Assembly (NCBI GenBank): GCA_016744995.1
Contig: JADGDG010000008.1
Span: 1 to 64,000 of the forward strand
Direction of reading: 5' to 3'
Length of the DNA stretch: 64,000 nt
Source: Gammaproteobacteria bacterium
Lineage (GTDB): Bacteria; Pseudomonadota; Gammaproteobacteria; GRL18
Both the position numbers and the translations under genes were made by a program. Below are positions 28,548 through 35,089 of the stretch, one piece after another (position 1 is the stretch's first letter; each line of letters opens with the position of its first letter). The notes under the pieces are model-generated. The model had not been told where the DNA came from and searched no databases. It saw only the letters and a list, made by a program, of their open reading frames with translations.

Positions 28548-29957
28548 TTGTTCAATAAACGCTGGGTTTTCTTTGTTCCCGTTATTGTGGGAATAATTAT
28601 ATTTTTATTGCTAAAACAAAATAGCCCTGAGCCACAGCAAAAACCAGCCAGGGAAGTGAGCACCGCAGTCAGGGTGCTAGCAATTCCTGAACTCAGTGTG
28701 ACTCCCATAGCAATTGGTTATGGAACCGTTCGCCCGGTTTCAACCTGGGAGGCCATTGCTCAGGTTGAAGGGATCATCCTGGAAAAAAATCCTGATTTCA
28801 GTAAGGGTGCCATTATTGAAAAAGGCCATCTATTGTTCCAAATTGATCCAGTCGACTACCAGCTAAATATCACACAAATCGAAGCAGACATACTGGCAAC
28901 TAAAGCTCAACAGGAGGAGTTAAACACCAAACAGAAAAATACGCAGGCTTCTCTTGAAATTGAGAAAAAATCCCTTGAACTGACTAAAAACGAACTTAAA
29001 CGCTTGCAAAAGCTATTGAAAAAAAGCAGTGTCAGTCGTTCTGATTTTGAAGCTCAGGAACGAAATATGCTGGCCCAGCAACAAAGTGTCCTGGCACAAA
29101 GCAATTCCCTTAAGTTAATCCCTACTCAAAAGGCACAGCTGGAAGCACAACTGCAACAAAAAAAGACACAACTAAAACGTGCACAGCGTGATTTACACAA
29201 TACTAAAATCACTATGCCTTTTACCGGTCGCATTTCTACCGATAATGTTGAACCGGCTCAATACGTTCGCGTCGGTGACATGCTCACAGCGGCCGATGCA
29301 CTTGATAAAGCAGAAATTGAGGTACAGATCCCCATTCGCTACTTCCGTGGATTGCTGCGTTCAGAGAAACACATTAATTTGCTGCATCCATCCATGAATA
29401 AACTGGATCAGCAATTGGGTATTAATGCAATGGTGGTTTTACAGGAAGGCGGCCTGTCAATTCACTGGAAGGCACGATTTTCACGACTCAGTGACACACT
29501 GGATCCCAAAACACGTACCATTGGGGTGATTGTTGAAGTGGATAAGCCCTATGACGACGTCATACCCGGCAGCAGGCCACCACTTATCAAAGGTTTTTTT
29601 GTGGAAGTGCATTTACTCGGTGCTCCTCGCCCAGACAGCCTGATAGTGCCTCGCTCAGCACTACATAATAATCACCTTTATCTGGTTAATGAGCAAAATC
29701 GGCTGGTGATTAAAAAAGTCCAGGTTGATTTATACCAACCTGAATTTGCTATTGTCTCGGATATAAGAACAACGTCCAAAGGTGCCCCGGCAAAAAACCC
29801 ATTAGTCGCAGGAGATAGTCTTATTATTTCTGATCTGGTGCCTGCGATTGAAGGCATGCTGCTATCGCCACAACAGGATCACAGCTCTGAAAAGCATTTA
29901 AAAACATTGGTTCTTTTGAACAGAGATAAACATCTCAGAGTTAAAGGAGATCAGTAA
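28548..29957 (+). CDS. RND periplasmic adaptor (second system)
   Basis: 469 residues starting from a TTG that is well placed behind AGAGGA (28535-28540). An N-terminal membrane anchor (about 6-23) replaces the lipid anchor seen in the other adaptor in this window. Lipoyl halves, a long alpha hairpin (about 110-220, Gln/Lys/Glu-rich) and a beta-barrel segment follow. The stop codon overlaps the ATG of the pump gene (TAATG), so the two are co-translated. No regulator gene is adjacent. The substrate is unknown. Confidence 0.9.
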   Translation: MFNKRWVFFVPVIVGIIIFLLLKQNSPEPQQKPAREVSTAVRVLAIPELSVTPIAIGYGTVRPVSTWEAIAQVEGIILEKNPDFSKGAIIEKGHLLFQIDPVDYQLNITQIEADILATKAQQEELNTKQKNTQASLEIEKKSLELTKNELKRLQKLLKKSSVSRSDFEAQERNMLAQQQSVLAQSNSLKLIPTQKAQLEAQLQQKKTQLKRAQRDLHNTKITMPFTGRISTDNVEPAQYVRVGDMLTAADALDKAEIEVQIPIRYFRGLLRSEKHINLLHPSMNKLDQQLGINAMVVLQEGGLSIHWKARFSRLSDTLDPKTRTIGVIVEVDKPYDDVIPGSRPPLIKGFFVEVHLLGAPRPDSLIVPRSALHNNHLYLVNEQNRLVIKKVQVDLYQPEFAIVSDIRTTSKGAPAKNPLVAGDSLIISDLVPAIEGMLLSPQQDHSSEKHLKTLVLLNRDKHLRVKGDQ

Positions 29958-32900
29958 TGCTCACCTTTTTTATCCGGCACCCAACTGCCGGAAATTTGCT
30001 AATGCTAATACTTCTGGCTCTGGGTTTGATATCCCTCCCCTCTTTAAAGCGTGAAACCTTTCCAGATTTTGTGCCTGAAAAAATTGAAATTCGTGTTGTC
30101 TATCCCGGAGCCAGTACAGAAGACGTCGAAGAAGCTATATGCCAGCGTATTGAAGATGCCATTGATGGAATTAATAATGTCGAGGAAGTCAGCTGTATGG
30201 CCCGTGAAGGCTTTAGTACCAGCATTATTGAAATGGTTGAAGATGGTGATATTTCACGTTTTCTGGATGATATAAAAAGTGAAGTGGAAGCCATTGACAA
30301 TTTTCCGGAAGAAGTTGAAGTACCAATCATAAAAGAACTGGGGCGATCCGATCAAGTGGTATCGATTGCCATTACCGGACCTTTTACTGGCTCTGGGGGT
30401 GAAAGCAATCTGAAGGCTTATGCCGAACAAATAAAGACAAAAATGTTACGTGAGCCAGAAATTTCTCAAGTCAACATTGTTGGGTTTTCTGATCATCAAC
30501 TACGCATTGAGATCCCAAAGCATATCCTGCACCGCTATAGCTTGAGCATGTCTGATATCGCCACAACCATTGCCCGACAAGGTGTTGATCTGCCTTCAGG
30601 ATCTCTGGAAACCTATGATCTGGATGTGCTGTTACGGTTTACTGATCTGCGCAGAACACCCGATGAACTGTCTGAATTGAAAGTGGTCAGCGCAACATCC
30701 GGTGCTGAAATACGCCTCGGTGATATTGCTACCATTACCGACAGATTTGAGTTGGATGAAGAAAAAACAATATTTAACGGCAAGCGTGCAGCCATACTCG
30801 AAATCATCAAGCCAAAGCAGGATGATTCGCTTACCGTAGTTGATGCAGTCAAGCGGTTTCTGAAAAATGAACAGGCTTTAGCACCGCCTGGCGTTTTATT
30901 TGACCTCACCAATGATCGCTCTTCTATTGTCCGCGACCGCCTCTCTATGCTGGTTAAAAATGGTGCCCAGGGTCTTATTCTGGTCTTTTTAGCCATGTGG
31001 CTTTTCTTTCAGGGACGTTTTGCCTTCTGGGTTGCTCTGGGTTTACCCATTTCATTTATGGGTGCTTTATTTATGATGAGCCTGTTCGGCTTAAGCATCA
31101 ATATGATCACCATGGTAGCACTGTTGATAGCCACTGGCCTTTTAATGGATGATGCAATTGTCATTTCAGAGAATATTGCAACTCATCTTCGTCAGGGGAA
31201 AAATGCCTTTCAGGCCGCGATTGATGGCACTCGGCAAGTAGCGCCCGGGGTCATCTCTTCATTTTTAACCACCATTGCAGTATTTGGACCTCTGGCTTTT
31301 TTATCAGGAGATATGGGTAAAGTACTGCAATTTATACCGATAGTTCTAATCGTAGTATTAGCCGTCAGCCTGATTGAAGCTTTTTTGATCTTACCGCATC
31401 ATCTGGCACATTCACTCAAACATCATGAAAAAGATTCATCTCGTTTTCGACAACGATTTGATGCTCGTCTGGATAAATTTCGTGAACAAACATTGGGTTC
31501 AGCCATTGATTTTGTCATCCATCGACGTTACTGGTTTATGGGCTCAGTTGTTGCTGTCTTTATCATCAGTATAGGCATGCTTGCGGGTGGTATTTTAAAA
31601 TTTCAGGCGTTTCCCGATATTGAGGGCGACATCATTGAAGCAAGATTATTACTCCCTCAGGGAACACCTCTGTGGCGCACAGAAAAAATAGTTAAACAAA
31701 TAACAAATGCTTTGGATAAGGTGGATAAACAGCTGACACCTCTGCAAAAAAACCAGCAGAACCTGCTAAAAAATGTTCAAATTCAATACAATACTAATCT
31801 GGACTCAGGTGAATCAGGAGCACATATCGCAACCATCACCGTAGACTTACTCACTGCTGAAAAACGCATCGGTTCCATTGATGAGATCATTAACCTATGG
31901 CGTAACTCTGTGGGTGAGATCCCTGATATTATTGCACTGAATTTTAAAGAGCCTACCACCGGCCCAGGTGGTCTGGCATTAGAGATCCGTTTATTCGGTG
32001 ACGAGATTAATGATCTTAAACTGGCTTCTATGTCACTGCAAAACTGGTTATCACGTTATCAGGGTGTATTTGATATATCGGACAATCTGCGACCTGGAAA
32101 ACCAGAAATAAGACTGAGTATGAGAGAGGGAACTTTTGCTTTAGGAATTGATGCTGCGACGATATCCAGTCAGCTTAGGGCTGCATTCTGGGGTACCACA
32201 GCCAATGAAATTCAAGTCGGGCCGGAAGCGTATGAGATTGATGTTAGACTAGCCGATAACGATAAAAATACACTCTATGCATTGGATGATTTTCGTATTA
32301 TAGATAAAGACAACAAGCAGATCCCACTCACAACATTAGTTAATATCGAGCGAGGTCGAGGGTTTTCTCGTATTGAGCGCATCAATGGCCAACGAAGTGT
32401 CACTATCACTGGAGATATTGATACCAGCATTGCTAATTCCAGAGAAATTATTGCTCATACTCGAGAAAATTTTATGCCTCAATTACTGAAACAATACCCC
32501 GGTGTTCATGCCGGCTTTGAAGGTCAGTCCAGAGAAACCGCCAAAACAGCCGGATCAATGATCCGGGGCTTTACTCTAGGCTTGTTGGGTATTTTTATCT
32601 TATTAAGTTTTCAATTTAAAAGCTATATCGAGCCATTATCAGTGATGTTTATTATACCGCTTGCTTTAATTGGTGTTATTTGGGGGCATCTGCTGATGGG
32701 ACTCAATATGACCATGCCTGGCATTATTGGCTTTGCTTCACTGAGCGGCATTGTAGTCAATGACTCAATTCTCCTGGTGGAATTTATCAAGCTAAAGATA
32801 AAGGCAGGTTATACTGTGTTAGAGGCTTCAAAACTTGCCAGTCGAGCACGATTCCGTGCCGTTATATTAACCTCAGTAACAACCATAGCAGGTCTGATCC

Positions 32901-33061
32901 CTCTGTTACTGGAAAAAAGTTTACAGGCACAGATTTTAATACCACTGGCCACCAGTATCATTTTTGGTCTATTAACAACCACCTTATTGGTGTTATTAGT
33001 AGTACCCGCATTATATAGTATTCTGGATGATTTCAGAGCCAAAAGTAAGGTGAATCATTAA
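29957..33061 (+). CDS. RND efflux permease (second system)
   Basis: 1034 residues with the complete RND architecture. It begins FFIRHPTAGNLLML, with TM1 near 10-28, and has RETFPDF followed by VYPGAS after it. TM4 has the proton-relay aspartates in TGLLMDDAIVISEN. The C-terminal bundle contains SGIVVNDSILLVEF. It probably exports hydrophobic or toxic compounds with the adaptor encoded just upstream. It differs clearly from the pump at 9795-12848, so the two are not a recent duplication. An outer-membrane channel gene is not present nearby. Confidence 0.93.
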   Translation: MLTFFIRHPTAGNLLMLILLALGLISLPSLKRETFPDFVPEKIEIRVVYPGASTEDVEEAICQRIEDAIDGINNVEEVSCMAREGFSTSIIEMVEDGDISRFLDDIKSEVEAIDNFPEEVEVPIIKELGRSDQVVSIAITGPFTGSGGESNLKAYAEQIKTKMLREPEISQVNIVGFSDHQLRIEIPKHILHRYSLSMSDIATTIARQGVDLPSGSLETYDLDVLLRFTDLRRTPDELSELKVVSATSGAEIRLGDIATITDRFELDEEKTIFNGKRAAILEIIKPKQDDSLTVVDAVKRFLKNEQALAPPGVLFDLTNDRSSIVRDRLSMLVKNGAQGLILVFLAMWLFFQGRFAFWVALGLPISFMGALFMMSLFGLSINMITMVALLIATGLLMDDAIVISENIATHLRQGKNAFQAAIDGTRQVAPGVISSFLTTIAVFGPLAFLSGDMGKVLQFIPIVLIVVLAVSLIEAFLILPHHLAHSLKHHEKDSSRFRQRFDARLDKFREQTLGSAIDFVIHRRYWFMGSVVAVFIISIGMLAGGILKFQAFPDIEGDIIEARLLLPQGTPLWRTEKIVKQITNALDKVDKQLTPLQKNQQNLLKNVQIQYNTNLDSGESGAHIATITVDLLTAEKRIGSIDEIINLWRNSVGEIPDIIALNFKEPTTGPGGLALEIRLFGDEINDLKLASMSLQNWLSRYQGVFDISDNLRPGKPEIRLSMREGTFALGIDAATISSQLRAAFWGTTANEIQVGPEAYEIDVRLADNDKNTLYALDDFRIIDKDNKQIPLTTLVNIERGRGFSRIERINGQRSVTITGDIDTSIANSREIIAHTRENFMPQLLKQYPGVHAGFEGQSRETAKTAGSMIRGFTLGLLGIFILLSFQFKSYIEPLSVMFIIPLALIGVIWGHLLMGLNMTMPGIIGFASLSGIVVNDSILLVEFIKLKIKAGYTVLEASKLASRARFRAVILTSVTTIAGLIPLLLEKSLQAQILIPLATSIIFGLLTTTLLVLLVVPALYSILDDFRAKSKVNH

Positions 33062-33101: not shown

Positions 33102-33824
33102 TTAAGCTCTTATATATGTCCACCCCTGATTTAAACGCCTGACAATTTCTTCAAGAGCTTCAGGAATAATGCTTGCCTCTTTGACAAGATGAATATCAAT
33201 GCCCTTTAATTTTTGCCTTTCAATTGAACGTTGACAAGCTAGAAAAGAGACATTTTCATGCGCCATTGCCAGGGAACGAATTCTATTAATATAGGGTGAA
33301 TTAATTGCCTGAAGAATTTTAATACCATCAGCATTAACAAGGATCTGAAGTTGAAACTTTTCATTGCTGTCATTTGATGCCAATAACCTTTCTGCATTAC
33401 CAAGTGCTGATTCGACCCGTGAAGAATCATCAGTTGAGATATGTAATAAGACTTGATGGCTATTGATCGTTTCTGAACTTAATTGAACGTATTGTGATGT
33501 ACTGTCCTTAAAAATCGGATGACCATAAAAAAAAGCGCCATTCCAACCCACAATACTGCCTATAAGTAAAAAAATACTGGCTGCAATAGCATACTGAAAA
33601 CGATTTGAATGATGTTTTTTAAGTTGTTTATCAGAATGACTATCCGGTGGCGTTTGATACGATAATTTAACCATTTCTTTAATAATTCTTGTCTGGCAAA
33701 TACTCTCTGAAATATCTTCATTTTCTTGTGATTTTTTTAAGATCTCAGCTTTCACTTCATTGGAAAGTTGATCATCAACATAGGCATTAATTTGTTCTAT
33801 GTGAGACATATCATCAGAGTTCAT
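33102..33824 (-). CDS. Membrane anti-sigma factor with DsrE-like extracytoplasmic domain
   Basis: 240 residues. The cytoplasmic N terminus (1-75) looks like an anti-sigma domain without the zinc-binding HxxxCxxC motif. One membrane helix lies at about 77-95. The C-terminal part (about 120-240) aligns along its whole length with the exported DsrE-family protein at 34640-35089: HQVLLHISTDD against HKLVIQVSTND, RIRSLAMAHENVSFLAC against RVKSLALQDIQFSAC, and matching ends (WTYIRA against YSYLRP). The Cys in the shared position (Cys197) is kept. It overlaps the sigma gene by 4 bases. Role as the cognate anti-sigma factor is inferred from this arrangement. Confidence 0.75.
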   Translation of the reverse strand: MNSDDMSHIEQINAYVDDQLSNEVKAEILKKSQENEDISESICQTRIIKEMVKLSYQTPPDSHSDKQLKKHHSNRFQYAIAASIFLLIGSIVGWNGAFFYGHPIFKDSTSQYVQLSSETINSHQVLLHISTDDSSRVESALGNAERLLASNDSNEKFQLQILVNADGIKILQAINSPYINRIRSLAMAHENVSFLACQRSIERQKLKGIDIHLVKEASIIPEALEEIVRRLNQGWTYIRA

Positions 33825-34372
33825 TTTACACTCCTCAATTTTATTTTTTGTCTACTCTTTTTTTGAGTATTAATATTTTTTTTCAAAAGGTTTTCTTTCA
33901 ATGACAGGCGACCACGGCTTAATCGACTCATTACAGTTCCTATTGGAATGTTTAATATTGAAGCAACATCGCCATAAGAAAAACCTTCTAAATCTATTAG
34001 GGTGATAACCTGGCGTTGCCCCATGGGCAATAAACCAATAGCCTTTCTTACCTGAATAATAATTTCTTGCTGCTGCAGTAATTGTTCGGGAGTTTCATCA
34101 TCAATAAAAACAAGATCATCAATACTTTCTGATGGTTTTATTTTGCGTAAATGATCATACCAGCAGTTGGCTAGTATCTTAAATAACCAACTATGAACAT
34201 TAGATTTATCACGAAGACTGGGCCATTTTTTTAATGCTTTAAAAAGGGTTTCATTGGTGAGATCATCAGCCAGCAACTCATCATTGCACCAGGAATAAGC
34301 CACTCGATAGAGTTGTTCTCGCTTATCTTTAAGCTCATTTTGTGTTTTATTTGTAAAAAATGAAAATAGCAT
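33821..34372 (-). CDS. ECF-type RNA polymerase sigma factor
   Basis: 183 residues with the two-domain layout of an extracytoplasmic function sigma factor. Region 2 includes ADDLTNETLFKALKKW and SWLFKILANCWYDHLRK. Region 4 includes LPMGQRQVITLIDLEGFSYGDVA and a helix-turn-helix (IPIGTVMSRLSRGR). It would recognise the promoter motif found upstream of itself and of the divergent DsrE gene. The next gene downstream is the membrane anti-sigma protein (4-base overlap), which would hold it inactive until an envelope signal is received. Confidence 0.93.
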   Translation of the reverse strand: MLFSFFTNKTQNELKDKREQLYRVAYSWCNDELLADDLTNETLFKALKKWPSLRDKSNVHSWLFKILANCWYDHLRKIKPSESIDDLVFIDDETPEQLLQQQEIIIQVRKAIGLLPMGQRQVITLIDLEGFSYGDVASILNIPIGTVMSRLSRGRLSLKENLLKKNINTQKKSRQKIKLRSVK

Positions 34373-34449
34373 AGTTTTTATTATGTTTTATTCCAAGATT
34401 CAAAGACTTGATTAACTGACAAATTCAGATTTTTTTAACTATTAACTAA

Positions 34450-34478
34450 TAAGACGGATGAATGATTTATTTTATTCC
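34450..34478 (-). promoter_or_regulatory. ECF-type promoter of the sigma/anti-sigma operon
   Basis: Reading the minus strand, GGAATAA (34478-34472) is followed after 15 bases by CGTCTTA (34456-34450). The GGAAT-type -35 element and the CGTC-type -10 element are typical of ECF sigma promoters. The same two heptamers occur in the opposite direction upstream of the DsrE gene. The predicted leader before the sigma start (34372) is about 70 bases. Confidence 0.7.
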
Positions 34479-34570
34479 ATTTATTTTAAACTATTTTAGT
34501 AACTCCTGAGTCTCAGCTTCAGTCCAAACAAGACTATAGACTGTTCTTTTATAAAAAGGAAAAAATAAAT

Positions 34571-34598
34571 GGAATAAAAATGTTTGTAATACGTCTTA
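34571..34598 (+). promoter_or_regulatory. ECF-type promoter of the exported DsrE gene
   Basis: GGAATAA (34571-34577) is followed after 14 bases by CGTCTTA (34592-34598). The heptamers are identical to those of the divergent sigma operon, and the match extends upstream (both are preceded by AAATAAAT). The predicted transcription start lies about 35 bases before the ATG at 34640. Shared control by the neighbouring ECF sigma factor is inferred. Confidence 0.7.
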
Positions 34599-34639
34599 TC
34601 TATGACTATCAATATTCTTTAATAAAATAGGAAAGTAAT

Positions 34640-35089
34640 ATGAGACATATTAAATATCAACTAAGCAACTTATTGATTCTATCAGTAGTAATGATCCTCG
34701 CTGTTAGCAGCATGTCTTCAGCATTTGCCGAAGATGGGCATCATAAGCTGGTTATCCAGGTCAGTACAAATGATCCAATAACACAAAAAATCGCTTTAAA
34801 TAATGCGGTCAATCTACAAAAGCACTATGGTATGGACAATATTACAATTGAAATTGTAGCTTTTGGACCAGGGCTTGGCTTGTTAACTACAAAAAGTAAA
34901 CAGGCTGACAGAGTGAAAAGTCTTGCTCTTCAAGATATACAATTTAGTGCTTGTGCTAACACCATGAAAAAAATGGCAAAGAAAGCAGGAAAACAGCCTG
35001 AATTGATTGAAGGTGTTGGCATTGTGTCTGCTGGAGCAGCAAGAATTATTGAACTGCAGGAGCAGGATTATTCATATCTCAGACCTTAA
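34640..35089 (+). CDS. Exported DsrE-family protein
   Basis: 149 residues with an AGGAAAG ribosome-binding site. A signal peptide (about residues 1-30, cleavage near AFA-ED) sends it to the periplasm. The mature part is a DsrE/DsrF-like fold: HKLVIQVSTND strand, a helix, VAFGPGLGLL, and SLALQDIQFSACANTM with Cys105 where DsrE-type proteins hold their reactive Cys. DsrE relatives in sulfur oxidisers carry persulfide sulfur; those work in the cytoplasm, so export is notable. It resembles the extracytoplasmic domain of the divergent anti-sigma protein and shares its promoter motif. A sulfur- or redox-sensing role is inferred. Confidence 0.82.
   Translation: MRHIKYQLSNLLILSVVMILAVSSMSSAFAEDGHHKLVIQVSTNDPITQKIALNNAVNLQKHYGMDNITIEIVAFGPGLGLLTTKSKQADRVKSLALQDIQFSACANTMKKMAKKAGKQPELIEGVGIVSAGAARIIELQEQDYSYLRP

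Follow-up and report, generated by a model that had tools for sequence, protein, structure and literature searches.

A putative sigma-factor switch with a DsrE-type sulfur-carrier domain on the predicted outer face of its anti-sigma protein in sulfur-oxidising bacteria

How sulfur-oxidising bacteria sense their substrate in the periplasm is poorly known. The window analysed here, a stretch of 64,000 nucleotides from a gammaproteobacterial contig (JADGDG010000008.1, assembly GCA_016744995.1), raises the question of whether a sulfur-carrier domain may have been recruited for this purpose. An initial annotation, made from the sequence alone, had proposed that the extracytoplasmic part of an anti-sigma protein aligns end to end with a divergently encoded exported DsrE-family protein, with a cysteine in the same place in both, and had suggested that sulfane sulfur, persulfide, a redox signal or DsrE-DsrE heteromer formation in the periplasm releases the sigma factor. 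We first asked whether this arrangement is real. The locus comprises the following features:

33821-34372, minus strand: ECF sigma factor, 183 aa.
33102-33824, minus strand: predicted anti-sigma factor, 240 aa, with cytoplasmic N-terminal helices (8-56), one TM helix (about 75-100) and an extracytoplasmic DsrE domain (122-240) containing Cys197.
34640-35089, plus strand: exported DsrE-family protein, 149 aa, with a signal peptide (about 1-30) and Cys105.
34452-34478, minus strand: ECF-type promoter facing the sigma gene, GGAATA-N16-CGTCT.
34571-34596, plus strand: ECF-type promoter facing the exported DsrE gene, GGAATA-N15-CGTCT.

The sigma and anti-sigma genes overlap by four bases, and the exported DsrE gene starts 267 bases away from the sigma gene. 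The sigma factor has regions 2 and 4 of sigma-70 only (Pfam Sigma70_r2, 3.9e-14; Sigma70_r4_2, 2.2e-15; TIGR02937, 83.8 bits against a cut-off of 42.9) and scored below the cut-off of the NCBIfam ECF equivalogs listed. An RND efflux pair (membrane fusion protein and pump, 28548-33061) ends 40 bases from the anti-sigma gene, tail to tail. Among related loci, L032 has another RND operon nearby, behind a DUF454 gene, whereas L033 and L035 have none, so the pair does not look like part of the module.

The two proteins align over residues 123-239 of the anti-sigma protein and 36-148 of the exported DsrE, with Cys197 opposite Cys105. As a single pair this match is weak (BLASTP E 0.001, 22% identity), but profile against profile it is decisive (hhalign probability 99.6%, E 4.7e-24 over the whole domain). 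Pfam detected DsrE in the exported protein (PF02635, 3e-5; 24.6 bits against a cut-off of 22.7). Pfam and NCBIfam searches of the window anti-sigma protein alone gave only chance hits (RE_HpaII, 0.006) and the family alignment was needed: 5 of 20 family members hit PF02635, and the family profile found the DsrE-type structures MTH1491 (1l1s, E 6.8e-20) and ST0148 (E 6.2e-11) over residues 123-240. The corresponding search with the exported protein found MTH1491 at 8.1e-23. An AlphaFold2 model of the anti-sigma protein, built from 20 sequences (mean pLDDT 78.8, about 90 in the domain), matched 1l1s over residues 122-240 with Z 18.0 (rmsd 1.7, 110 aligned residues), YchN with 13.9, DsrE of DsrEFH (2hy5_A) with 12.4 and TusD with 12.2, unrelated folds scoring 7 and below. 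The model of the exported protein (pLDDT 91) matched 1l1s with Z 20.8. A second structural comparison listed no other convincing fold for either protein. The N-terminal helices, the single TM helix and the charge bias around it (373 against 77 Lys+Arg in the 15 residues before and after it, summed over 100 proteins) place the N terminus inside and the DsrE domain outside.

The N-terminal part is less easily recognised. Weak zf-HC2 hits were obtained in 12 of 20 family members and weak RseA_N hits in 3 of 20, with none in the window protein. The latter has a single N-terminal cysteine (Cys43) and lacks the HxxxCxxC motif of zinc-binding (ZAS) anti-sigma factors. The anti-sigma function is inferred from class.

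We next examined conservation of the cysteine. In 100 distinct full-length relatives (22-80% identical to the window protein, most of them 22-36%), only Leu20, Trp235 and Cys197 are invariant, with Asp17 present in 99, and every one has exactly one cysteine in the last 125 residues. The exported proteins keep their cysteine in 78 of 78 cases, and the 18 in our alignment of exported proteins have a single cysteine in the domain. Cys197 and Cys105 both align with Cys78, the only cysteine of the DsrE encoded by the window's own genome, which is closely related to the DsrE of 2hy5 (E 1.1e-65); Cys197 also aligns with the cysteines of MTH1491 and ST0148. This residue is the established active site of the family, and DsrE-like proteins carry adducts such as thiosulfonate on cysteine (PMC4175335). 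A generic thiol redox sensor, responding to oxidant or disulfide stress, could in principle act through intermolecular disulfides of a conserved periplasmic cysteine. However, the single cysteine excludes an internal disulfide switch in the outer domain, and the putative targets described below are sulfur genes rather than oxidative-stress genes, so we regard this alternative as very unlikely.

The initial annotation had called the exported protein a paralogue of the sensor domain, a term to be read loosely. In a phylogenetic tree, sensor domains and exported proteins form separate groups (95/83 support), archaeal DsrE proteins lying on the exported side, and a recent local duplication was thus rejected.

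To establish how general the arrangement is, we searched for it in other genomes. Of 96 genomes searched, 37 had a match, part of them to DsrE proteins only. A scan of named genomes gave 80 loci, largely from sulfur oxidisers, including Thiobacillus, Sulfuricella, Guyparkeria, Halothiobacillus, Thiohalophilus, Thiomicrospira, Sedimenticola and Thiogranum. The module is widespread in sulfur-oxidising beta- and gammaproteobacteria. Two loci, L160 and L166, lie on contigs labelled Phycisphaerales and Desulfobacterales, reflecting either transfer or wrongly binned MAG contigs. Plasmid hits in Rhizobium and Azospirillum turned out to be exported DsrE-like genes: no sigma gene is annotated beside the Azospirillum one and none was seen among the ORFs read beside the Rhizobium one. 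In the Azospirillum brasilense plasmid (L197:2706-4363) the DsrE-like gene lies directly after a site-2 protease gene; site-2 proteases cut anti-sigma proteins in other systems.

The sigma gene lies directly upstream of the anti-sigma gene in 96 of 97 loci with flank. In the 79 loci with at least 1.5 kb upstream, a divergent exported DsrE gene is present in 47, any DsrE gene close by in 55 and a porin of family Porin_O_P in 41. The remaining 24 loci have no DsrE gene close by, although four such or related genomes that were checked carry one elsewhere, so a dedicated partner is not obligatory in cis. PEGA/SHOCT lipoproteins are further neighbours. The porin and the lipoproteins recur next to the module, in several loci behind the same promoter (L040:3951-5381, L040:3340-3852, L044:2511-3050), and we found no description of a role for them in sulfur oxidation. 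A second exported DsrE type (up to 224 aa) lies divergent from an exported DsrE of 161-178 aa, each behind its own GGAATA...CGTC promoter, next to the sigma module (L041:2644-3132, L051:4060-4734). Together, these results confirm the observation of the initial annotation: neither of the two outcomes that would have overturned it, a C-terminal domain unlike DsrE or a lack of conserved gene pairing in relatives, was found.

Two divergent promoters, which the initial annotation had missed, make the exported DsrE a predicted output of the sigma factor. Both sides of the intergenic region carry the same ECF-type sequence, GGAATA-N15/16-CGTC, with two matches in the window against 0.01 expected. In relatives, the sigma-facing copy is exact in 72 of 93 loci with at least 300 bases upstream, against 0 with the reversed pattern and 0.02 in shuffles. 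Among the 79 loci with longer flank it faces the sigma gene in 63 and the opposite gene in 51, the control pattern giving none, and the opposite copy is present in 40 of the 47 loci with a divergent DsrE gene. In the window's genome a large regulon was rejected, since GGAATA-N15/16-CGTCT has three hits, two being this pair and the third lying inside an ORF, and a variant pattern added one hit, also inside an ORF. The predicted regulon there is hence the operon itself plus the exported DsrE. In two sister genomes the promoter also stands in front of an unlinked exported DsrE gene of another subtype.

These findings prompted us to look for a link to sulfur oxidation. In loci L096 and L142 the place of the DsrE gene is taken by a sox operon behind the same divergent promoter (a TsuA-like gene with SoxYZAXB, and SoxYZAXB, respectively), and in L116 a separate copy of the promoter precedes SoxX-Y-Z-A. 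In L043, L044, L132, L136, L146 and L154 sox genes lie beside the module. SoxY and some others were recognised by position and GGCGG tail only. Among 276 genomes of the class, 56 of 57 with the full-length anti-sigma protein carry soxB above the curated cut-off, against 60 of 219 without it (Fisher 1e-24, not corrected for phylogeny). The window's genome has dsrAB with dsrEFH, and soxB. An alternative is that the DsrE domain is a structural or degenerate module, that the real signal is envelope stress, for example from porin assembly, and that the sulfur link arises only because the owners are sulfur oxidisers. The frequent Porin_O_P neighbour would fit this view, as the classical RpoE/RseA system senses outer-membrane proteins (PMC8103513). 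However, the cysteine is invariant in sequences that otherwise drift to 22% identity, and sox operons can replace the porin as putative target, so we consider this explanation unlikely.

Taken together, our results suggest a transmembrane switch for periplasmic sulfur, an explanation that we favour with moderate confidence. In this model, the N-terminal part of the anti-sigma protein would hold the sigma factor at the inner membrane. The periplasmic DsrE domain would take a sulfur adduct on Cys197, either persulfide/sulfane sulfur or thiosulfonate from thiosulfate or tetrathionate chemistry, directly or handed over by the exported DsrE protein, and the change would release the sigma factor by conformation or by proteolysis. 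The sigma factor would then read the paired promoters, raising its own operon and the exported carrier and, in relatives, also an outer-membrane porin, a PEGA lipoprotein or the sox operon. The net effect would be to match periplasmic sulfur-handling capacity to supply, with the exported carrier feeding back on the sensor. The sequence analysis establishes the DsrE domain, its topology, the invariant single cysteine, the paired promoter sites and the conserved neighbours. By contrast, binding and inhibition of the sigma factor, sulfur loading and transfer on the cysteine, the identity of the signal, the release step, the feedback and the use of the promoters are inferred from protein class, from the chemistry of the family and from conservation, no experiment having shown that sulfur species change sigma activity.

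The main rival, which overlaps with this model but appears unlikely, is that the exported DsrE protein is itself the ligand, forming hetero-oligomers with the outer domain (DsrE proteins oligomerise, as in DsrEFH and TusBCD), so that its amount or sulfur-loading state would set sigma activity, like RseB on RseA, and Cys197 need not react with small sulfur compounds. The conserved pairing and co-regulation inferred from the promoters, the common fold and the common cysteine position agree with this reading. Against it stand the 24 loci without a neighbouring DsrE gene, some with the sox operon or the porin in its place, and the separate grouping of sensor domains and exported proteins.

The interpretation offered by the initial annotation is therefore supported in part. 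The DsrE-like sensor half, the export of the second DsrE and the conserved three-gene set hold, and the sulfane-sulfur hypothesis gains strong, although circumstantial, support from the single invariant cysteine at the active-site position, the sox operons behind the same promoter in relatives and the near-perfect co-occurrence with soxB. A generic intramolecular redox disulfide is unlikely, while sigma release and DsrE-DsrE heteromers remain hypothetical. A bolder reading, possible but tentative, is that these proteins form a widespread, undescribed class of one-step transmembrane sulfur sensors, in which a cysteine-based sulfur-carrier domain was captured as the sensor of an anti-sigma protein and a secreted carrier of the same family passes its sulfur charge to it, so that protein-bound sulfur itself would turn on periplasmic sulfur oxidation.

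The module offers a concrete candidate sensor, residue and promoter set in organisms such as Thiobacillus, Guyparkeria, Thiomicrospira and Sulfuricella, and ties uncharacterised exported DsrE proteins, a Porin_O_P porin and PEGA lipoproteins to sulfur oxidation. SoxR-type repressors and sulfite-responsive ECF factors are not known to have a sulfur-carrier sensor. In the open literature searched we found no description of a DsrE domain as an anti-sigma sensor, papers matching DsrE together with anti-sigma being DsRed-type false hits, although an existing ECF group with this anti-sigma protein cannot be excluded.

Both components belong to known kinds. ECF sigma factors that answer to sulfur oxyanions have been described in the sulfite- or tetrathionate-responsive ECF26 systems of Sinorhizobium meliloti (RpoE1, RpoE4) and Starkeya novella (PMC3511301, PMC6527743). 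These are autoregulated and control a few sulfur-oxidation genes; they form an alphaproteobacterial group with COG5662-type anti-sigma proteins, in the accounts of which no DsrE sensor was seen, and their targets are sulfite oxidases. With ECF sigma/membrane anti-sigma pairs such as RpoE-RseA(-RseB), the present module shares a sigma gene followed by a one-TM anti-sigma gene, an autoregulatory promoter (here predicted) and a periplasmic co-protein, but its predicted sensor domain is DsrE and the putatively co-regulated periplasmic protein is a DsrE carrier. With the DsrE/TusD family and the MTH1491-type (COG1416-like) single-domain DsrE proteins it shares the fold, here predicted, and the position of the single active-site cysteine. 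The described DsrE, TusD and DsrE3A proteins are cytoplasmic, whereas here the domain is the extracytoplasmic half of a predicted membrane anti-sigma protein and its partner is exported.
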